Source: Aristaeella lactis
GTDB taxonomy: Bacteria > Bacillota > Clostridia > Christensenellales > Aristaeellaceae
Direction of reading: 5' to 3'
DNA: 64,000 bases
NCBI RefSeq assembly: GCF_018118585.1
Contig: NZ_CP069421.1
Location: 1,302,001-1,366,000, forward strand
Positions 2,814 through 64,000 of this stretch are shown here, one piece after another (the first letter of the stretch is position 1; the number at the start of each line of letters is the position of its first letter). The notes under the pieces are model-generated. The model was not told where the DNA came from and made no database searches. It saw only the letters and a program-made list of their open reading frames with translations. The position numbers and the translations under genes were made by a program.

Positions 2814-2882
2814 TTTTTATCTCTCCTGCCCTGCATTTTCGCCTTTATCATGAGTATAAACCACTTTGGATTTACACTGTAT

Positions 2883-2948
2883 CATTTTTCATTCTTCATT
2901 CTTCATTCTTCATTGGCAATTCAAAGAATGAATCATTCTTTGAATTGC
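2883..2948. repeat. Inverted repeat over the pheS stop, fused to an AATGAA satellite
   Basis: GCAATTCAAAGAATG (2916-2930) and CATTCTTTGAATTGC (2934-2948) are perfect 15-base inverted copies. The pheS TGA stop (2933-2935) sits at the loop, so one arm is the last pheS codons and the other lies just beyond the stop. On the minus strand the arm runs straight into a tandem AATGAAG-like satellite (2883-2913). No T-run follows, so this is not a classical terminator. Confidence 0.85.
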
Positions 2949-4252: not shown

Positions 4253-4291
4253 ATCCTTCATTCTGCATTCTGAATTCTGAATTCTGAATTA

Positions 4292-6545: not shown

Positions 6546-6605
6546 AAACACTTAATTGTTCATTTTTCATTGTTCATTGTTCATTCGCACATTACGAGGT
6601 ACCTT

Positions 6606-7493: not shown

Positions 7494-7550
7494 AACTCTT
7501 TATAATTCTGAATTCTTAATTCTGAATTCTGAATTAAGAAAGGATCATCT

Positions 7551-10712: not shown

Positions 10713-11345
10713 ATGCCCTGGATGTACGCGGTCTCCGCTCTCTGCCTTTTTGTCTGTCTTCCCTTCTTTATGCACTACAAGCGAATACTCCGCTATCATC
10801 TGGCCGCCTCCTTTAAGGCCCTTGGAACACTGTGCGCTGCTTCCATGGCCCTGACAGCCGCCCTGCGCCTGGACCAGTACTGCTGGATCTGTTTCGGGGC
10901 CCTGCTGCTGCATTCCGCCGCGGATTACCTGATGGAGTTCAATATGTACCTGGGCGCCGGCTTTTTCCTGGCCGGCCATATCTGCTATATCTGTTTCTTT
11001 ACTCATCTGTTCCCGGTCTCCGGCCTGCACCTGATCGCCCTGCTCTGCCTGCTTGGCATCGTGGTCTTCCTGCTTTGGCGCTGGCGGAGACTGGTCGGTA
11101 AACAGCTTCCCTTCTTTGCAATCTATGCTGTTGTTCTCTCCATCACCGCAGCCTGCGCTATTGCCGGCCTTTCCGCCCATACCCTGCAGGGCCAGATGAT
11201 CGCCCTGGGCGGCGCCCTCTTCTTCCTGAGCGACGCCATGATCCTAGGCCGCACCCTCTTCACCGCCACCCACGCCGTCGACTGGGTCATCATGATCACC
11301 TACTACGCCGCACAGCTGCTCATCGCAGCTTCGTGCCTCGTATGA
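10713..11345 (+). CDS. YhhN-family membrane protein (lysoplasmalogenase-like)
   Basis: 210 residues with about eight membrane helices. The pattern FKALGTL, LLLHSAADYLMEF, FFLAGHICYICFF, GALFFLSDAMIL and YYAAQLLI follows the YhhN family, whose studied members cleave the vinyl-ether bond of lysoplasmalogens. Many anaerobic Clostridia make plasmalogens, so the function is plausible. GGAGG precedes the ATG. It is the last gene of the rightward run and faces the rRNA operon; a hairpin array follows its stop. Confidence 0.82.
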   Translation: MPWMYAVSALCLFVCLPFFMHYKRILRYHLAASFKALGTLCAASMALTAALRLDQYCWICFGALLLHSAADYLMEFNMYLGAGFFLAGHICYICFFTHLFPVSGLHLIALLCLLGIVVFLLWRWRRLVGKQLPFFAIYAVVLSITAACAIAGLSAHTLQGQMIALGGALFFLSDAMILGRTLFTATHAVDWVIMITYYAAQLLIAASCLV

Positions 11346-11383
11346 TCATCCAAATTTCGTATCCTCTTCCAAGAAACCAGTCA

Positions 11384-11475
11384 GTGAAATGTTGACTTCG
11401 TCAACGTGAAATATTCGGCTCCGCCGAATGTGAAATATTGGCTTCGCCAATGTGAAATATCCGTCTTCGACAGAT
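11384..11475. repeat. Hairpin array 1 (GTGAAAT linker)
   Basis: Four units in a row. Each has the linker GTGAAAT (starts 11384, 11406, 11430, 11452) followed by a hairpin with a 3-base loop. Stems are GTTGAC/GTCAAC, ATTCGGC/GCCGAAT, ATTGGC/GCCAAT and ATCCGTC/GACAGAT (one mismatch). Loops are TTC, TCC, TTC and TTC. Stem sequences all differ while pairing is kept; the linker is identical. Two more arrays are at 27227-27467 and 61665-61837. Confidence 0.9.
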
Positions 11476-11797
11476 GTTTTTTATACTCATTTTCCAAGTA
11501 TGCTCCCAAAGCCCCGTTCCTTCTACAAGATACATGCAAGCAAGTTCGCAGGCAGTCCTCGAAAATGTCATTCCGAGCGTAGTCGAGGAATCCCTTGATA
11601 AGCAGTTGCTTTAGCAACTGCCATTTCTTTTATCACAAGTGTTCTGTGTGGAACACATACCCATACAGCTTTCCAAAGCACGCCAAAAACACACTTCTGA
11701 CAACCGGTCAAGGGTTTCACAAGTGGCCTGCGGCCACCCTTGACCAGCTGCCATCAGTGTGCTGAAGGGCAGTCAAGGAGGGTCAGATCAATCTGCC
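11476..11797. repeat. Gene-free repeat-rich spacer
   Basis: I see no gene here. It holds a CATTCCGAGCGTAGTCGAGG sequence (about 11570-11593) like short dispersed repeats known in many bacteria, a GCAGTTGC/GCAACTGC hairpin (about 11601-11620), a hairpin GTGTTC/GAACAC (about 11639-11658), and a larger stem (11706-11745) in which GGTCAAGG pairs with CCTTGACC and GTGGCC with GGCCAC, with TTTCACAA bulged out. That bulge resembles the linker of the hairpin arrays. Confidence 0.6.
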
Positions 11798-11867
11798 CTC
11801 CCGGGCCGTTACCAATCAAATACCACCGACACTGAAGAGCTTAACTTCTGTGTTCGGTATGGAACAT
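11798..11867 (-). pseudogene. Truncated 5S rRNA copy
   Basis: About 70 bases match the 3' two-thirds of the intact 5S gene at 12324-12439 with a handful of changes; the core ACTGAAGAGCTTAACTTCTG is identical. The 5' domain of the 5S is missing or unrecognisable, so it cannot make a normal 5S rRNA. A GGAGGG...CCCTCC stem lies just beyond its 3' end, like a terminator. Confidence 0.8.
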
Positions 11868-11915
11868 ACGAGTAAAGTGTCTTATTATTCTCAAAGCATC
11901 AGATACTAGTAACGT

Positions 11916-12088
11916 TGTTCGGTATGGAACAGGGGAGCGAGCCGAATGTCAGCCCAGTGGGCTGTCGGCGAAGCCGAAATGAGGCGAACGAGTCAACCGA
12001 AACGAGCAATGCGACCGCTCCAAGGGAGCAGTGCGACGATTGAGGTTGCGGAGGAACCTCTTCGTCTCTCCCCCTCCCACCTGTTCCC
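11916..12088. repeat. Scattered 5S rRNA fragments around a 119-base insert
   Basis: GTTCGGTATGGAACAGG (11917-11933) and GGAACCTCTTCGTC (12053-12066) are neighbouring pieces of 5S, here split by about 119 foreign bases. A third piece, CCACCTGTTCCC (12077-12088), is the same 5S region in inverted orientation. The insert has many CGA-containing steps and small stems (GCTCC/GGAGC, AGCCCAGTGGGCT) but no gene I can support. Confidence 0.7.
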
Positions 12089-12161
12089 GAAGCTTCCTAC
12101 ACTGCTCGCCTGGATTCCATTTATGGAATCCGTGAGTGAGCCTTATAAAGGCGAACGAAAC

Positions 12162-12221
12162 AATCTGGGTGATCGCTTCTTTTGCATATAATGCAAGGAT
12201 AGAAGCGATCACCCAGATTGA
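12162..12221. repeat. Perfect 20-bp inverted repeat with nested stem
   Basis: CAATCTGGGTGATCGCTTCT and its exact inverted copy flank a 20-base loop that itself contains TTGCAT-ATA-ATGCAA. Flanking DNA adds GCCTT-ATA-AAGGC (12141-12153) and GGATTCCAT-TT-ATGGAATCC (12112-12131). No T-run follows. It lies between the 5S fragments and the rRNA terminator. Confidence 0.85.
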
Positions 12222-12285
12222 ATAAGGCGAGCGTCTTATCTTTTATACCAATACTCTATATCTTCAAATACCGCCGGATTCCATG

Positions 12286-12318
12286 AAAAAACTCTGTAGT
12301 TTTCACTACAGAGTTTAT
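12286..12318 (-). terminator. rRNA operon terminator
   Basis: Just past the 5S gene, AAACTCTGTAGT and ACTACAGAGTTT form a perfect stem with a short loop, followed on the minus strand by TTTTTTC. An outer stem also pairs GCCGGATTCCA with the 5S end. Confidence 0.92.
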
Positions 12319-12323
12319 TGGAA

Positions 12324-12439
12324 TCCGGCGGCGACCTACTCTCCCGGACCGTTGCCAGTCAAGTACCATCGGCACTGAAGAGCTTAACTTCTGTGTTCGG
12401 TATGGGAACAGGTGGAACCTCTTCGTCATAGCCACCGGA
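12324..12439 (-). rRNA. rrf: 5S ribosomal RNA
   Basis: The minus strand reads TCCGGTGGCTATGACGAAG through CCATACCGAACACAGAAG to GTAGGTCGCCGCCGGA, with the two ends complementary as in 5S helix I. Length 116. It is the last gene of the operon, about 197 bases after 23S. Confidence 0.95.
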
Positions 12440-22435: not shown

Positions 22436-22494
22436 ACCATTTTTCATTCTTCATTCTTCATTTTTCATTGAGCAATGAACTCCGTTCATTGCTC
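22436..22494. repeat. Inverted repeat plus AATGAA satellite at the 3' end of the pyruvyltransferase-like gene
   Basis: GAGCAATGAAC (22470-22480) and GTTCATTGCTC (22484-22494) are perfect inverted copies around a 3-base loop. The minus strand then runs into tandem AATGAAGAATG units (22436-22469) that contain the stop codon. So the last 12 or so residues of the protein are encoded by this element. Confidence 0.85.
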
Positions 22495-27226: not shown

Positions 27227-27467
27227 GCAGAAGTCATTGTCTTCTGCCGTAATGATATATTCGTCTTCGATGAATGCTTTATATGCTCTGCCATTCATCT
27301 GACTGATTTGGTTATGTTAGATTGCTTAGTCACACTATTCAAAACTTTCACCGACAGGCGAAAATATCACATCCCGCGCAGCGGGATATATCATATTGAG
27401 CCGTACAACGGCTCAATATATCATGTTTGCCCTTGGCAAATATATCATTCGCCCGTTTTCGGGCGAA
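27227..27467. repeat. Hairpin array 2 (ATATCAC/ATATCAT linker)
   Basis: Four units at 27364-27467: linker ATATCAC or ATATCAT followed by ATCCCGC-gca-GCGGGAT, ATTGAGCCGT-aca-ACGGCTCAAT, TTTGCC-ctt-GGCAAA and TTCGCCCG-tttt-CGGGCGAA. A weaker unit (TTTC..GAAA) precedes them. A further unit in the opposite sense lies at 27252-27275 (ATGATAT, then ATTCGTC-ttc-GATGAAT), next to a GCAGAAG/CTTCTGC stem (27227-27247). The remaining bases of this gene-free stretch hold nothing else I can name. Confidence 0.88.
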
Positions 27468-27505: not shown

Positions 27506-28279
27506 TTACTCAAGCCCGTAGACTTTTTTCGCGTTTTCTGTCGTATAAGCGGCGACTTCTTCCGGATCTTCTCCCCGGATTTCCGCCATCTTCATCCCGA
27601 CATACCGCACATTCGCCGGCTCATTCCGCCGTCCCCTGACCGGTTCCGGCGCCATATAGGGGCTGTCCGTCTCGATCAGCAGCCGGTCCTTCGGCACCAG
27701 CCTGCAGGCTTCCTGCAGCTTCGGCGCCTTTTTGAAGGTCAGCGGTCCTGCAAAGGAAATGTAATACCCGAGCTTCAGGTACTCCTTCGCGATCTCCGCG
27801 CTTCCGGAGAAGCAGTGGATGATTCCCCCGGTCAGCTTCGCCTTCATGCTTTTCATGATCTCCAGCATTTCAGCATGCGCATCCCGGATATGATAGGCCA
27901 CCGGAGCTCCAAGCTCCCAGGCCAGTTCCATCTGCCGGAGGCACACCTCCCGCTGGACGTCCCGCGGGCTGTGGTCATAATAGAAGTCCAGGCCGATCTC
28001 CCCGATGGCACGGATCTTTCCCTTCCGGTACCAGTCCGCCATCTCCGCGAGATCCTCTTCCTGAAAGCCTTTTGCCTCATGGGGATGGATCCCGCCGACA
28101 GCAATGGCTCCCTCATGCTCCCGGGCAAAGCGGATCGCCCGCCGGGAGGTTTCCATATCGGAACCGATCACCGCGTACCGGGTAATACCGAACTCCGCCA
28201 TGCGGGCCAGCGCTTCATCCCGGTCTTCGTCAAAGGCCTCTTCATCCACGTGGCAGTGGCTGTCAAACCATTCCATCAT
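27506..28279 (-). CDS. TatD-family metal-dependent hydrolase
   Basis: 257 residues of TIM-barrel amidohydrolase fold, the usual TatD length. Motifs are WFDSHCHVD, GGIHPHEA, IGEIGLDFYYD, VAYHIRDAH, HCFSGSAE and LIETDSPYMAPEP. TatD proteins are 3'-5' DNA exonucleases with possible tRNA-linked roles. It overlaps the metG stop by 4 bases, the common metG-tatD arrangement in Bacillota. Confidence 0.95.
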   Translation of the reverse strand: MMEWFDSHCHVDEEAFDEDRDEALARMAEFGITRYAVIGSDMETSRRAIRFAREHEGAIAVGGIHPHEAKGFQEEDLAEMADWYRKGKIRAIGEIGLDFYYDHSPRDVQREVCLRQMELAWELGAPVAYHIRDAHAEMLEIMKSMKAKLTGGIIHCFSGSAEIAKEYLKLGYYISFAGPLTFKKAPKLQEACRLVPKDRLLIETDSPYMAPEPVRGRRNEPANVRYVGMKMAEIRGEDPEEVAAYTTENAKKVYGLE

Positions 28280-36700: not shown

Positions 36701-36754
36701 TAATTGTTCATTGTTAATTGTTCATTGTTCATTGGATTGATCAGAGATCAATCC
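36699..36754. repeat. Inverted repeat over the galK stop, fused to an AATGAA satellite
   Basis: GGATTGATC (36734-36742) and GATCAATCC (36746-36754) are perfect inverted copies with a 3-base loop; the galK TGA (36741-36743) lies at the arm-loop edge. On the minus strand the second arm runs directly into AATGAACAATGAACAATTAA units (to 36699), which reach the tsaE start. Confidence 0.85.
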
Positions 36755-51063: not shown

Positions 51064-51126
51064 CAGCGAAGGAACTCTTCACTCTTCACTGTTCACTCTT
51101 AACTCTTCACTCTTCACTCTTCACTT
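51064..51126. repeat. AGTGAAG-type satellite after lon
   Basis: On the minus strand, tandem AGTGAAG-like units begin directly at the lon stop and run about 60 bases, with single-base variants (AGTTAAG, AGTGAAC). A CCTTCGC..GCGCTCAGG stem follows before engB. Confidence 0.8.
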
Positions 51127-61664: not shown

Positions 61665-61837
61665 CTATCACATCCGCCGCAGGCCAGTATTTCAACAAAT
61701 TCGTGCCTTCGACCTGGCCAAAACCATATATCACATCCGCCGAAGGCGGATATTTCACATCAGCCGCCCTGCGGCTGATATTTCACATCTTTTCGTCAGA
61801 AAAAATATATCACATTGGCCGAAGGCCAATATTTCAT
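61665..61837. repeat. Hairpin array 3 (ATATCAC/ATTTCAC linker)
   Basis: Clear units: ATCCGCC-gaa-GGCGGAT (61735-61751), ATCAGCCGC-cct-GCGGCTGAT (61759-61779), an AT-rich weak stem (61787-61806) and ATTGGCC-gaa-GGCCAAT (61814-61830). Linkers between them are ATATCAC, ATTTCAC, ATTTCAC, ATATCAC and ATTTCAT. Two decayed units lie at 61665-61727. The array sits between two convergent genes and fills most of the gene-free stretch. Confidence 0.9.
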
Positions 61838-61839
61838 TG

Positions 61840-61866: not shown

Positions 61867-62649
61867 TCACTCCGTCCATTCCTTCGTTGTCGGAACGTCC
61901 TGCTCATCATCATCCAGCATGTAGGCTTTATGCCGTTCATCGATCACGGGATCAGCCGGCATGATCAGGCGTCCTTCCGGGATCAGCAGCTCCGGCTGTT
62001 TTCCGGACAGGATCACTTTGGCGTAGTCTTTGATATCCGTCAGCCTGTGGTCCAGCGATACGCCGTAAAGCGGCCAATCGGCACCTTTGTGGTTATCCGA
62101 TCCGGCGGACATGACCAGGTTGAATTCCTTTCCGTAAAGCCAGGCCCTGGCGTCGTCCAGGGGATCGTTTCCCGCGTTGGCCACCTCGATACCGTCACAG
62201 TACTTCAGTCCCAGGCGGATCCGGTCCATATAGTTCCGCATCCGGAACGGATGGGCCTGTACCACGCAGCCCCCGGCCTTGTGCACTTCCTCCAGCTGCT
62301 CGTGCCGGGTCCAGTGTTCCATCTCCGGATGGGCTTTCATATACTCTTTTGTCAGACCGTAGATCAGGTATTCATCAAAATGGATATTCTGCTCCAGGCC
62401 GAAGAAGACATCCAGGCCGATCCGGTCTCCCTCTTCCTTCGCGTCTTCATATCCCTTCCAGAACAGATCCACCCGTTCTTCCCAGGGCAGTTCCCGGTTC
62501 ACAGCGGTGTTTCCGCCGAAAAAATGGTCCGTAATGATGATCCCGGTAAAACCGGCTTCCTTATAAACCCGGGCCTGTTCTTTGCCCGTCACCTTTCCGC
62601 AGGCGCTTCCCTGGCAGGTATGCATATGGGTTTCATATAAAAATGGCAT
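61867..62649 (-). CDS. PHP-domain phosphoesterase/hydrolase
   Basis: 260 residues. PHP metal ligands are in ETHMHTCQGS, IIITDHFFGG, FGLEQNI, VQAHPFRM and SAGSDNHKG. PHP proteins hydrolyse phosphates (histidinol phosphate, nucleotides, polymerase-associated DNA); this one's substrate is not clear. A loop of about 50 residues (NTAVNRELPWEERVDLFWKG onward) is large for the family. GGAAGGAGAG precedes the ATG. The promoter is at 62682-62710. Confidence 0.9.
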   Translation of the reverse strand: MPFLYETHMHTCQGSACGKVTGKEQARVYKEAGFTGIIITDHFFGGNTAVNRELPWEERVDLFWKGYEDAKEEGDRIGLDVFFGLEQNIHFDEYLIYGLTKEYMKAHPEMEHWTRHEQLEEVHKAGGCVVQAHPFRMRNYMDRIRLGLKYCDGIEVANAGNDPLDDARAWLYGKEFNLVMSAGSDNHKGADWPLYGVSLDHRLTDIKDYAKVILSGKQPELLIPEGRLIMPADPVIDERHKAYMLDDDEQDVPTTKEWTE

Positions 62650-62787: not shown

Positions 62788-62825
62788 TTGATATAATTCT
62801 GAATTCTGAATTCTGAATTCTGAAT
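62788..62825. repeat. AATTCAG satellite after the VWA gene
   Basis: Four tandem TTCTGAA-type units (AATTCAG on the minus strand) begin directly after the VWA gene stop. Same type at 4257-4291 after dnaA and 7503-7536. Confidence 0.85.
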
Positions 62826-64000
62826 TTAATGACTCCGTTCCAGCAGCGTCAGCAGGTACACAAACTCTTCCTTATATGCGTCTCCGGAAACGCTTTCGCA
62901 GCCCCGGACCAGTTCCAGTGCCTGGGTATAGGTCGCAGTGCCCTTCCACTCGCTTTCCCGAAGGAGCATACCGGCTTCCGCAACCGCCGCGGCAAACCGC
63001 AGGTTCTCGCTCATGTTTTCCTTCACGGCTTCATCCGTCACAGGATATTCATACAGTTTGCTTACCGTTCCTTCCGGCTCCTTGGCGCGGATGGAGACTG
63101 TCAGCCAGTCGGTCTTTTCCGCCGCGTCGGACACCTGGGCATTCTGGTAGCGGCTTTCCGCCTCACCGAATTCGAAATCGGAATCTGCCGGAATGATCTC
63201 ATACAGGGCCGTCATGCGGTGACCGCTGCCGATCTCTCCGCCGTCCTTCTCGTCATTGGCGAAATCTTCCGCGGCCATCACCCTGTCTTCGTAGCCGATC
63301 AGCCGGTAGCCCTTCACCTTGGCAGGATTGAAGTCCACCTGGATCTTAACGTCCTTGGCCACGGTGATAAACGTGCCGCCGCCTTCTTCCACCAGGGCCT
63401 TGCGGGCTTCATAGATGGTGTCGATATACCGGCAGTTGCCGTTGCCGTAATCCGCCAGGGCTTCCATCTTGTTATCCTTGTAGTTGCCCATGCCGAATCC
63501 CAGGCAGGTCAGGCTGATGCCGCTTTCCCTCTTTTCCGTCACAAGCCTGGTCAGTTCGCCTTCGCTGGTCACGCCAACGTTCAGGTCGCCGTCTGTCGCC
63601 AGCAGGATCCGGTTCACGCCTCCTTCCCGGTAATACTTCGCGGCGATCTCATACGCCCGGAGAATTCCGGCACTGCCGTTGGTGCTGCCGCGCGCTTCCA
63701 GTTCGGAAATAGCCTCCATGATCCGGGTCTTGTCGGCTGCCGGAGTGCCCTCCAGTACAACACGGTCGTTGCTTGCGTAAGTGACAATGGATACGGTGTC
63801 TTCCGGATCCAGTTCCTCCAGCAGGAGCATGAACGCCCGCTTCACCAGGTCCAGCCGGTCGCTGCCAAACATACTTCCGGATGTATCGATCAGGAAAACC
63901 AGGTTATGTCCGGGACGTTCATCCTTTTTCACTTCCTCCGCCTGCAGGCCGATCAGCATCAGCCTGGTCTTTGCGTTCCAGGGGCAGGGAGCGATTTCCG
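62826..64000 (-). CDS. VWA-domain protein (YfbK-like), C-terminal part
   Basis: The frame is open to the right edge, so the start lies outside. The visible 390 residues begin with EIAPCPWNAKTRLMLIGLQ, the linker before the von Willebrand factor A domain in YfbK-type proteins, then the MIDAS metal site FLIDTSGSMFGSDRL and LLATDGDLNVGV. The last 150 residues form the extra beta/helical C-terminal domain of this family. Function unknown; usually secreted or membrane-anchored. An internal ATG at 63959 is not the true start because the upstream residues are conserved in style. Confidence 0.88.
   Translation of the reverse strand, partial: EIAPCPWNAKTRLMLIGLQAEEVKKDERPGHNLVFLIDTSGSMFGSDRLDLVKRAFMLLLEELDPEDTVSIVTYASNDRVVLEGTPAADKTRIMEAISELEARGSTNGSAGILRAYEIAAKYYREGGVNRILLATDGDLNVGVTSEGELTRLVTEKRESGISLTCLGFGMGNYKDNKMEALADYGNGNCRYIDTIYEARKALVEEGGGTFITVAKDVKIQVDFNPAKVKGYRLIGYEDRVMAAEDFANDEKDGGEIGSGHRMTALYEIIPADSDFEFGEAESRYQNAQVSDAAEKTDWLTVSIRAKEPEGTVSKLYEYPVTDEAVKENMSENLRFAAAVAEAGMLLRESEWKGTATYTQALELVRGCESVSGDAYKEEFVYLLTLLERSH

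Follow-up and report, generated by a model that had tools for sequence, protein, structure and literature searches.

The window, a stretch of 64,000 nucleotides from the genome of Aristaeella lactis, raises the question of what kind of element is formed by four short hairpins that stand in line behind a gene and share one seven-base linker. The earlier note described this series as four hairpins joined by an exact GTGAAAT, with 3-nt loops and perfect or near-perfect stems, and the description is confirmed for every part (Table 1). The first linker begins 38 nt 3' of the stop codon of the YhhN-family gene, and all four hairpins close on a loop of 3 nt. The RNA fold of this copy (100 nt) reaches -35.0 kcal/mol compared to a shuffle mean of -18.65 (z = -5.43, with 0 of 200 shuffles as good), and the DNA fold gives z = -4.31 against shuffles, with the three inter-hairpin linkers mostly open. 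The word GTGAAAT taken singly is not enriched in the window, with 11 occurrences where shuffles have 8 on average. Spaced pairs of GTGAWAT occur six times, three at this copy and three near 61.7 kb, compared to none in 100 shuffles.

Table 1. Positions of the Gut-1 copies, their parts and neighbouring features in the window
Feature	Position	Strand	Remarks
Upstream gene, YhhN family (PF07947)	10713-11345	+	same DNA as L001:914-1543
Rfam RF01706 Gut-1 match	11382-11463	+	60.2 bits, model 1-77 of 77
Linker 1	11384-11390	+	GTGAAAT
Hairpin 1	11391-11405	+	GTTGAC-TTC-GTCAAC
Linker 2	11406-11412	+	GTGAAAT
Hairpin 2	11413-11429	+	ATTCGGC-TCC-GCCGAAT
Linker 3	11430-11436	+	GTGAAAT
Hairpin 3	11437-11451	+	ATTGGC-TTC-GCCAAT
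Linker 4	11452-11458	+	GTGAAAT
Hairpin 4	11459-11475	+	ATCCGTC-TTC-GACAGAT, single C.A mismatch
T6 run	11477-11482	+	terminator-like together with hairpin 4
Third copy	27338-27448	-	four hairpins, ATGATAT/GTGATAT linkers; 24.1 bits, below threshold
Second copy	61728-61839	-	four hairpins (one imperfect), mixed ATGAAAT/GTGAAAT/GTGATAT linkers; 43.4 bits, below threshold
Period-7 array at gene end	2882-2914		
Period-7 array at gene end	4259-4290		
Period-7 array at gene end	6555-6585		
Period-7 array at gene end	7504-7535		
Period-7 array at gene end	22438-22469		
Period-7 array at gene end	36703-36734		
Period-7 array at gene end	51074-51125		
Period-7 array at gene end	62795-62826		

CRISPR arrays consist of identical repeats of some 20 to 40 nt separated by non-repeating, non-palindromic spacers. 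The constant part of the element measures 7 nt and its variable parts are self-complementary, which rules out a CRISPR, as had been argued before. The further claim that no described family fits is wrong, because the window copy matches the covariance model of Rfam RF01706, Gut-1, over the full model length and clearly above the threshold (60.2 against 50 bits). The earlier note had itself named membership in a known repeat family as a refutation, and Gut-1 turns out to be that family. The window element also shows the hallmark of Gut-1, hairpins linked by UGAAAU with covarying stems. Linker sequence and hairpin series are thus shared with the Rfam entry, and 22 matches above the threshold are found in the window's genome; the model, however, comprises three hairpins, so that the match covers only the first three at the window copy, whereas the commonest unit in this genome has four and is dispersed 3' of genes. 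In the accessible part of the 2010 paper, Gut-1 is listed as "Human gut only" (PMC2864571), whereas similar arrays are found here also on contigs derived from the guts of ruminants and further animals. In the open-access literature searched, no function is on record for Gut-1, a full-text search returned no paper on "gut-1 RNA", and no paper was found on palindromic GTGAAAT repeats or on intergenic heptamer tandem repeats with stop codons in Firmicutes. Gut-1 may have stayed unexplained because many of the genomes that carry it have been assembled only from metagenomes. The window element is genuine and structured, lies at a gene end and belongs to a multi-copy Rfam family already known.

The window's genome (3.45 Mb) contains 73 Gut-1 matches at E<=10, 40 at E<=1e-4 when filtered more strictly, and the 22 above the threshold; the weakest of the 73 are insecure because 9 of 14 control genomes also match at E<=10, compared to 0 of 14 above the threshold. 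Spaced GTGAWAT pairs occur 126 times genome-wide, compared to none for the reversed pattern, and chance does not account for such pairs. A script recognizing linkers and hairpins in the fetched DNA delivers 65 chains, 35 with four units, 17 with two, 10 with three and 3 with five, some of the three- and five-unit chains being parser errors. The 30 chains parsed as other than four units are partly parser misses and partly real. The term "array" used for the element earlier is not quite apt: the commonest state is a four-hairpin unit, and at one gene end (L044) sister species carry four units (G001), three (G035) and two (G022), which is consistent with loss from a four-unit form. The two further copies in the window begin 29 nt after the stop codon of the minus-strand gene at 61867-62625 and 57 nt after that of the minus-strand gene at 27506-28279, respectively.

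Some regularities extend beyond the hairpins. GTGA continues after the last hairpin in 37 of the 65 chains, and TTACT or ATACT stands at the next expected place in 24. Copies start either after a locus-specific hairpin, then mostly with ATGAAAT, or after GGTAA, then mostly with GTGAAAT; the window copy is among the exceptions to this rule. The linker core is mostly uniform within a copy, being TGAAAT, TGATAT or, in G007, TGAATT, with exceptions such as the second window copy, which mixes two cores.

The proposal that pairing is kept despite sequence change is supported by a comparison free of any pairing requirement. Among segments of the window's genome chosen solely by the spacing of two linkers, 119 of 124 distinct ones have at least five Watson-Crick pairs at their ends, compared to a mean of 0.58 and a maximum of 3 after shuffling; the pooled stem count from the parser, which itself requires pairing, is circular. 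An alignment of hairpins 1 to 3 from 34 of the 35 four-unit copies (L055 was left out) shows two-sided changes in 15 of 22 consensus pairs, with only 17 of 748 pair cells broken or gapped. Folding to minimum energy as RNA makes the linkers' AT and GT pair across each hairpin through A-U and U.G, which leaves 3 nt between stems in 83 of 96 gaps of the 35 four-unit copies, and 31 of these copies fold into four domains. The U.G pair is conserved where U-A would pair better, which suggests that the linker letters matter beyond pairing.

Perfect hairpins could also be produced by a mutational process rather than by selection. Replication template-switching is a process that corrects imperfect palindromes, and functionless repeats might be kept perfect in this way. 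Such an origin would account for stems that turn over at one locus with pairing retained, and an inverted copy of a coding end, as described below, is the expected leftover of fold-back copying. Template-switching alone, however, explains neither the bias in orientation and position nor the constant linker and loop types and the four-unit architecture, and junk repeats of this kind are considered rather unlikely.

The position of the copies behind genes was determined with gene calls based on codon scoring. Of the 59 chains with a call for the upstream gene (6 of the 65 have none), 47 are co-directional with it and 12 opposite. Merging neighbouring chains results in 57 clusters, of which 44 are co-directional, 9 opposite and 4 without a call (p = 1e-6). 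Co-directional chains starting within 71 nt of the stop codon number 36, whereas three opposite clusters lie that close to the neighbouring gene; in 6 copies, the TGA of the first linker itself serves as the stop codon. The strand of the copies is observed to switch in large chromosome blocks with few exceptions (on G000:C1 at about 276-617 kb, 1028-1093 kb, 1.39-2.34 Mb and 2.68-3.39 Mb, G000 being the window's genome). This is as replication or gene co-orientation would give, the two not being separated here. The host genes are diverse and include housekeeping genes, as judged from 38 upstream proteins: besides YhhN at the window copy, phosphoglycerate kinase, IMP dehydrogenase, glutamate dehydrogenase, EF-G, fumarase and chaperonins are found. 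A regulon of host genes was rejected, since no protein family occurs in more than 2 of the 38 (E<=1e-10).

This placement bears on the classification of Gut-1 as a free-standing small RNA. Rfam types the entry as "Gene; sRNA", the accessible part of the 2010 paper groups it with motifs whose expression is most likely separate from mRNAs (PMC2864571), and the structure is strongly kept. Dozens of dispersed copies that lie closely 3' of stop codons in the gene sense, and a stop codon within the first linker in 6 copies, argue against it and make a free small RNA improbable. No sigma-70-like promoter is found in 11300-12350, an absence that says little because 1.1 are expected there by chance. 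The evidence shifts Gut-1 from a free RNA towards a dispersed 3'-end element.

Ordinary intrinsic terminators in tandem are the second obvious candidate, given hairpins 3' of genes and, at the window copy, a T6 run behind hairpin 4. The ortholog of this copy in G004 has two hairpins, the final one a perfect version of window hairpin 4 followed by a T-run, and looks like the better terminator; no array lies at the orthologous gene end in G001, G015, G016, G022 or G035. The terminator-like site of the window copy is not called by a consensus terminator scan. A run of at least five T in the 14 nt behind the last hairpin is found in only 2 of the 35 four-unit copies, the window copy among them, whereas the other 33 lack the T-run that follows the G+C-rich hairpin of an intrinsic terminator, and some copies (the L004 group) lie between closely spaced co-directional genes. 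The element is for these reasons not simply a terminator, in agreement with the earlier reading; tandem terminators have little probability as a general explanation.

As a copy of Gut-1, the window element is probably a non-autonomous element that is dispersed over gene ends and carried on mRNA 3' ends. In favour of this reading are the number of copies, their placement and orientation behind genes, the frequent four-unit build, the compensatory changes in the stems, the patchy occurrence at orthologous gene ends and the stop-spanning hairpins described below. Nine of the 53 clusters with a call run opposite to the upstream gene, 30 of the 65 chains were parsed as other than four units, and the two enzyme families searched as machinery do not track the element, which counts against this reading. 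The usual unit consists of four short hairpins with 7-nt linkers (GTGAAAT, ATGAAAT, ATGATAT and the like) 3' of the stop codon in the gene sense. Copies may spread through insertion at gene 3' ends and would be transcribed together with the upstream gene. The hairpin cluster could then serve as a platform at the RNA 3' end, where it might block 3'-5' decay and, at the window copy with its T-run, help or buffer termination; the linkers perhaps bind a protein. An orphan Rfam entry would in this way become a testable object, a multi-copy gene-end element with housekeeping genes as neighbours.

Comparison of species shows where the element is present and absent. Among 61 genomes including the window's own, Gut-1 matches at E<=1e-4 occur in 10 and matches above the threshold in 9. 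The counts at E<=1e-4 are 40 in the window's genome, 41 in G001, 45 in G022, 41 in G035, 14 in the incomplete G004, 1 in G003 and 4 in G007, with none in the other genus members drawn; in other families, G044 has 50, G047 25 and G051 9. In a wider draw, 4 of 398 genomes carry Gut-1, the window's own included. The exact three-linker pattern is found in at least 118 stretches of genome contigs, and a lax hairpin script accepts at least 66 of these, including 43 of the 80 matches listed with names; a few passes are evidently false (L163, L187). Of the 43, a check by hand finds 38 labelled as Clostridia or a subgroup, many from the ruminant gut among the matches listed, and many carriers are known only as metagenome-assembled genomes. 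Two contigs labelled Akkermansia and Akkermansiaceae (L141, L144) also bear GTGAAAT-hairpin arrays, which represent either transfer between phyla or mis-binned contigs. At L078 (G044), L068 and L085, in a distant family, the arrays are longer and more regular, with linkers of the types GTGATAT and GTTATAT and with TTGCCTATCGGCAA hairpins that recur; they possibly represent a different subtype.

Orthologous gene ends in sister species are empty, hold a copy with other stems or hold a different dispersed repeat, usually an array of 31-33 nt with a period of 7. At the gene end L015, the element lies 3' of the stop codon in G000, G001, G004, G007 and G022, neither repeat is present in G015, G016 and G064, and a period-7 array stands there in G035. 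In G000, hairpins 2 and 4 at this site are unlike their counterparts in G001, G004 and G022, and G007 differs in all four linkers. Similar patchy presence is seen at other gene ends.

The period-7 (heptad) arrays form a second class of gene-end repeats in these genomes. A self-match script finds eight in the window, seven of them 31-33 nt long, and no other period from 4 to 20 except 14; Tandem Repeats Finder at a low score also reports short arrays of other periods. In 540 kb of fetched DNA, 31 period-7 arrays (19 and 12) occur, whereas no other period from 4 to 15, apart from 14, is found more than twice, and 19 of 30 measure 31-33 nt. All eight window arrays overlap a stop codon or lie within 18 nt of one. 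Read by eye in the gene sense, six are AATGAA-, AATTCAG- or AGTGAAG-like, and two are the complement. A five-AAT heptad pattern matches 310 times on both strands of the window's genome against 3 for the control, and 166 to 498 times per genome in six genus members with many Gut-1 or linker-variant copies, with 71 in G015, 24 in G016 and near 0 in most others; these are counts of pattern matches rather than arrays, and long or self-similar arrays are counted repeatedly and on both strands.

A relationship between the two classes is suggested by the reading of a four-unit Gut-1 copy without its hairpins, which leaves about five heptads. Both could belong to one gene-end heptad family in which the Gut-1 linkers are period-7 units with a hairpin inserted after each, recognized by the same single-strand-binding factor. 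Period 7 as nearly the only short array period in the 540 kb, the high heptad counts in the six Gut-1-rich genus members and the swaps between species, in which Gut-1 in one is replaced by a heptad array in another at L004, L015, L025, L034 and L038, all agree with such a family. Against it, heptad matches number 0, 2 and 0 in the Gut-1 carriers G044, G047 and G051, Gut-1 matches are missing from the heptad-bearing G015 and G016, and the common distribution may reflect shared ancestry. The RNA fold leaves 3 rather than 7 linker bases unpaired, and the GAGGTAG and AATGCAC heptad families have no core in common with the linker. A single heptad family is possible but less likely than not. Intergenic 7-nt repeats that are dispersed and without known function have been described as TAACTGA heptamer direct repeats in Beggiatoaceae and cyanobacteria, and the accessible part of that report considers a cold-shock-type protein of which each copy would bind one heptamer (PMC4679880). 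The same source places those repeats mainly before start codons and as contiguous units, whereas hairpins separate the units of Gut-1.

Gut-1 sites show an additional feature in front of the element, where the end of the host gene often pairs with its own inverted copy across the stop codon. A hairpin with a score of at least 9 flush with the element start is found at 23 of the 65 chains, compared to 23 of 1,080 random positions; 54 chains have any hairpin, and the 11 without one are counted as misses. Orthologous sites were collected by querying 14 gene ends, following up 12 and fetching 80 sites among the matches listed. At 13 orthologous gene ends, a stop-including hairpin, whose 5' arm consists of coding sequence and stop codon, occurs at 19 of 34 sites with Gut-1, at 2 of 15 with heptads and at 6 of 55 that have neither repeat. 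The Fisher test between Gut-1 sites and sites with neither gives 7e-6 (without G000, 11 of 21 against 6 of 55, p = 3e-4). These values overstate independence: the set of orthologs is small and its members are related, the gene ends were chosen by way of G000 copies, several of them because a hairpin was present, and sister species share some hairpins by descent, so that events are fewer than sites. The site classes are imperfect. Of the six hairpin-bearing sites scored as having neither repeat, the one of G004 at L044 is a Gut-1 copy whose linkers are variants, and those of the same genome at L038 and L032 have a heptad-like tail; G035 and G001 at L004 (rearranged Gut-1 sequence) and G035 and G022 at L047 (a remnant) were also scored as neither, and G035 at L032 was scored as Gut-1 on a copy 125 nt away.

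The two arms of these hairpins change together. The coding ends of G000 and G004 at L048 differ and the non-coding arm differs to match, and at L032 coding end and arm differ in step across several species. At L047, a terminator is lengthened by an outer stem in G000, G001, G022 and G035, which is not the case in G007, G016 and G064. The non-coding arm may have been copied on insertion or selected afterwards. Stop hairpins without the element, in G007 at L032 and L038 and in G062 at L047, count against copying on insertion. An explanation of the hairpins before the element as simple terminators applies to some of them (L032, L045, L047, L055); those at L003, L004, L025, L035, L036, L038, L043 and L058, among others, have no T-run. 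If stop hairpins arise by copying of the host gene's end, the insertion mechanism would be an unusual one; if they are selected, gut Clostridia would repeatedly use structure to control their mRNA 3' ends.

The search for a machinery of movement concentrated on RAYT transposases and reverse transcriptases. Like the repetitive extragenic palindromes known as REP, BIME or REPIN, Gut-1 copies are hairpins scattered between genes in high copy number, with a short tag that stays constant and stems that vary in a compensating way (PMC3733652, PMC2817692, both in their accessible parts), and a REP-like palindrome moved by a RAYT (Y1) transposase, with the linker as the tag, would fit these features. 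The window's genome has 4 Y1_Tnp matches, and 6 of the 7 genus members with Gut-1 matches have at least one. One Gut-1 copy of G001, 3' of the phosphoglycerate kinase gene, ends about 0.9 kb before a Y1 gene, and the matching pair in G022 is about 2.4 kb apart. The tag at the foot of the hairpin is nevertheless GTGAAAT or a variant of it rather than the GTAG or CGTC of REPs, and the four hairpins stand head-to-tail, whereas REP dimers are predominantly head-head, as far as the available parts of these sources go (PMC3733652, PMC2817692). RAYT genes are stated to be always flanked by two inverted REPs in the accessible text of one of them (PMC2817692), whereas none of the six Y1 loci inspected has a GTGAAAT-hairpin array within about 1.5 kb on each side, let alone two inverted copies; four of these loci come from carriers, and three further Y1 genes of G000 lie outside the sample. 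Y1_Tnp is present in 29 of the 61 relatives, many of them arrayless, and was not found in the array carriers G004, G044, G047 and G051. With no array beside the six loci inspected and no co-occurrence, the RAYT transposase was rejected as a partner, and a REP-like origin is very unlikely.

A reverse transcriptase of the RVT_1 type was rejected as a partner as well, since it was not found in five element-rich genomes. The family was searched without a match in G000, G001, G007, G022, G035, G044 and G051, and is present in the carriers G004 and G047 and in the non-carriers G005, G011, G017, G033 and G062. Neither RAYT transposases nor RVT_1 reverse transcriptases track Gut-1, which leaves no candidate machinery among the two. 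Carriage by phages or plasmids was likewise rejected, as positions 11340-11500 of the window have no blastn match at 1e-5 in either collection; on viral contigs, 18 of 120 three-linker loci pass the lax hairpin script, several of them plain direct repeats.

A possible new link connects Gut-1 with the heptad arrays and the stop-spanning inverted copies. As a tentative proposal, Gut-1 units and 32-nt heptad arrays might be one class of gene-end elements that insert directly 3' of stop codons in the gene sense, with Gut-1 sites often gaining an inverted copy of the last codons that is later kept complementary, and with neither RAYT nor RVT_1 involved.

Two minor observations concern the surroundings of the window copy. 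A 5S rRNA-like match on the minus strand at 11780-11895 (34.6 bits, below the threshold of 38) lies between the array and the true 5S gene (12323-12439) and is perhaps a degenerate 5S copy. Another dispersed repeat, GTCATTCTGAGCG...GTCGAAGAATCTC or its complement, stands directly 3' of several Gut-1 copies, at about 11550-11600 in the window and in the flanks of L006, L007 and L013.
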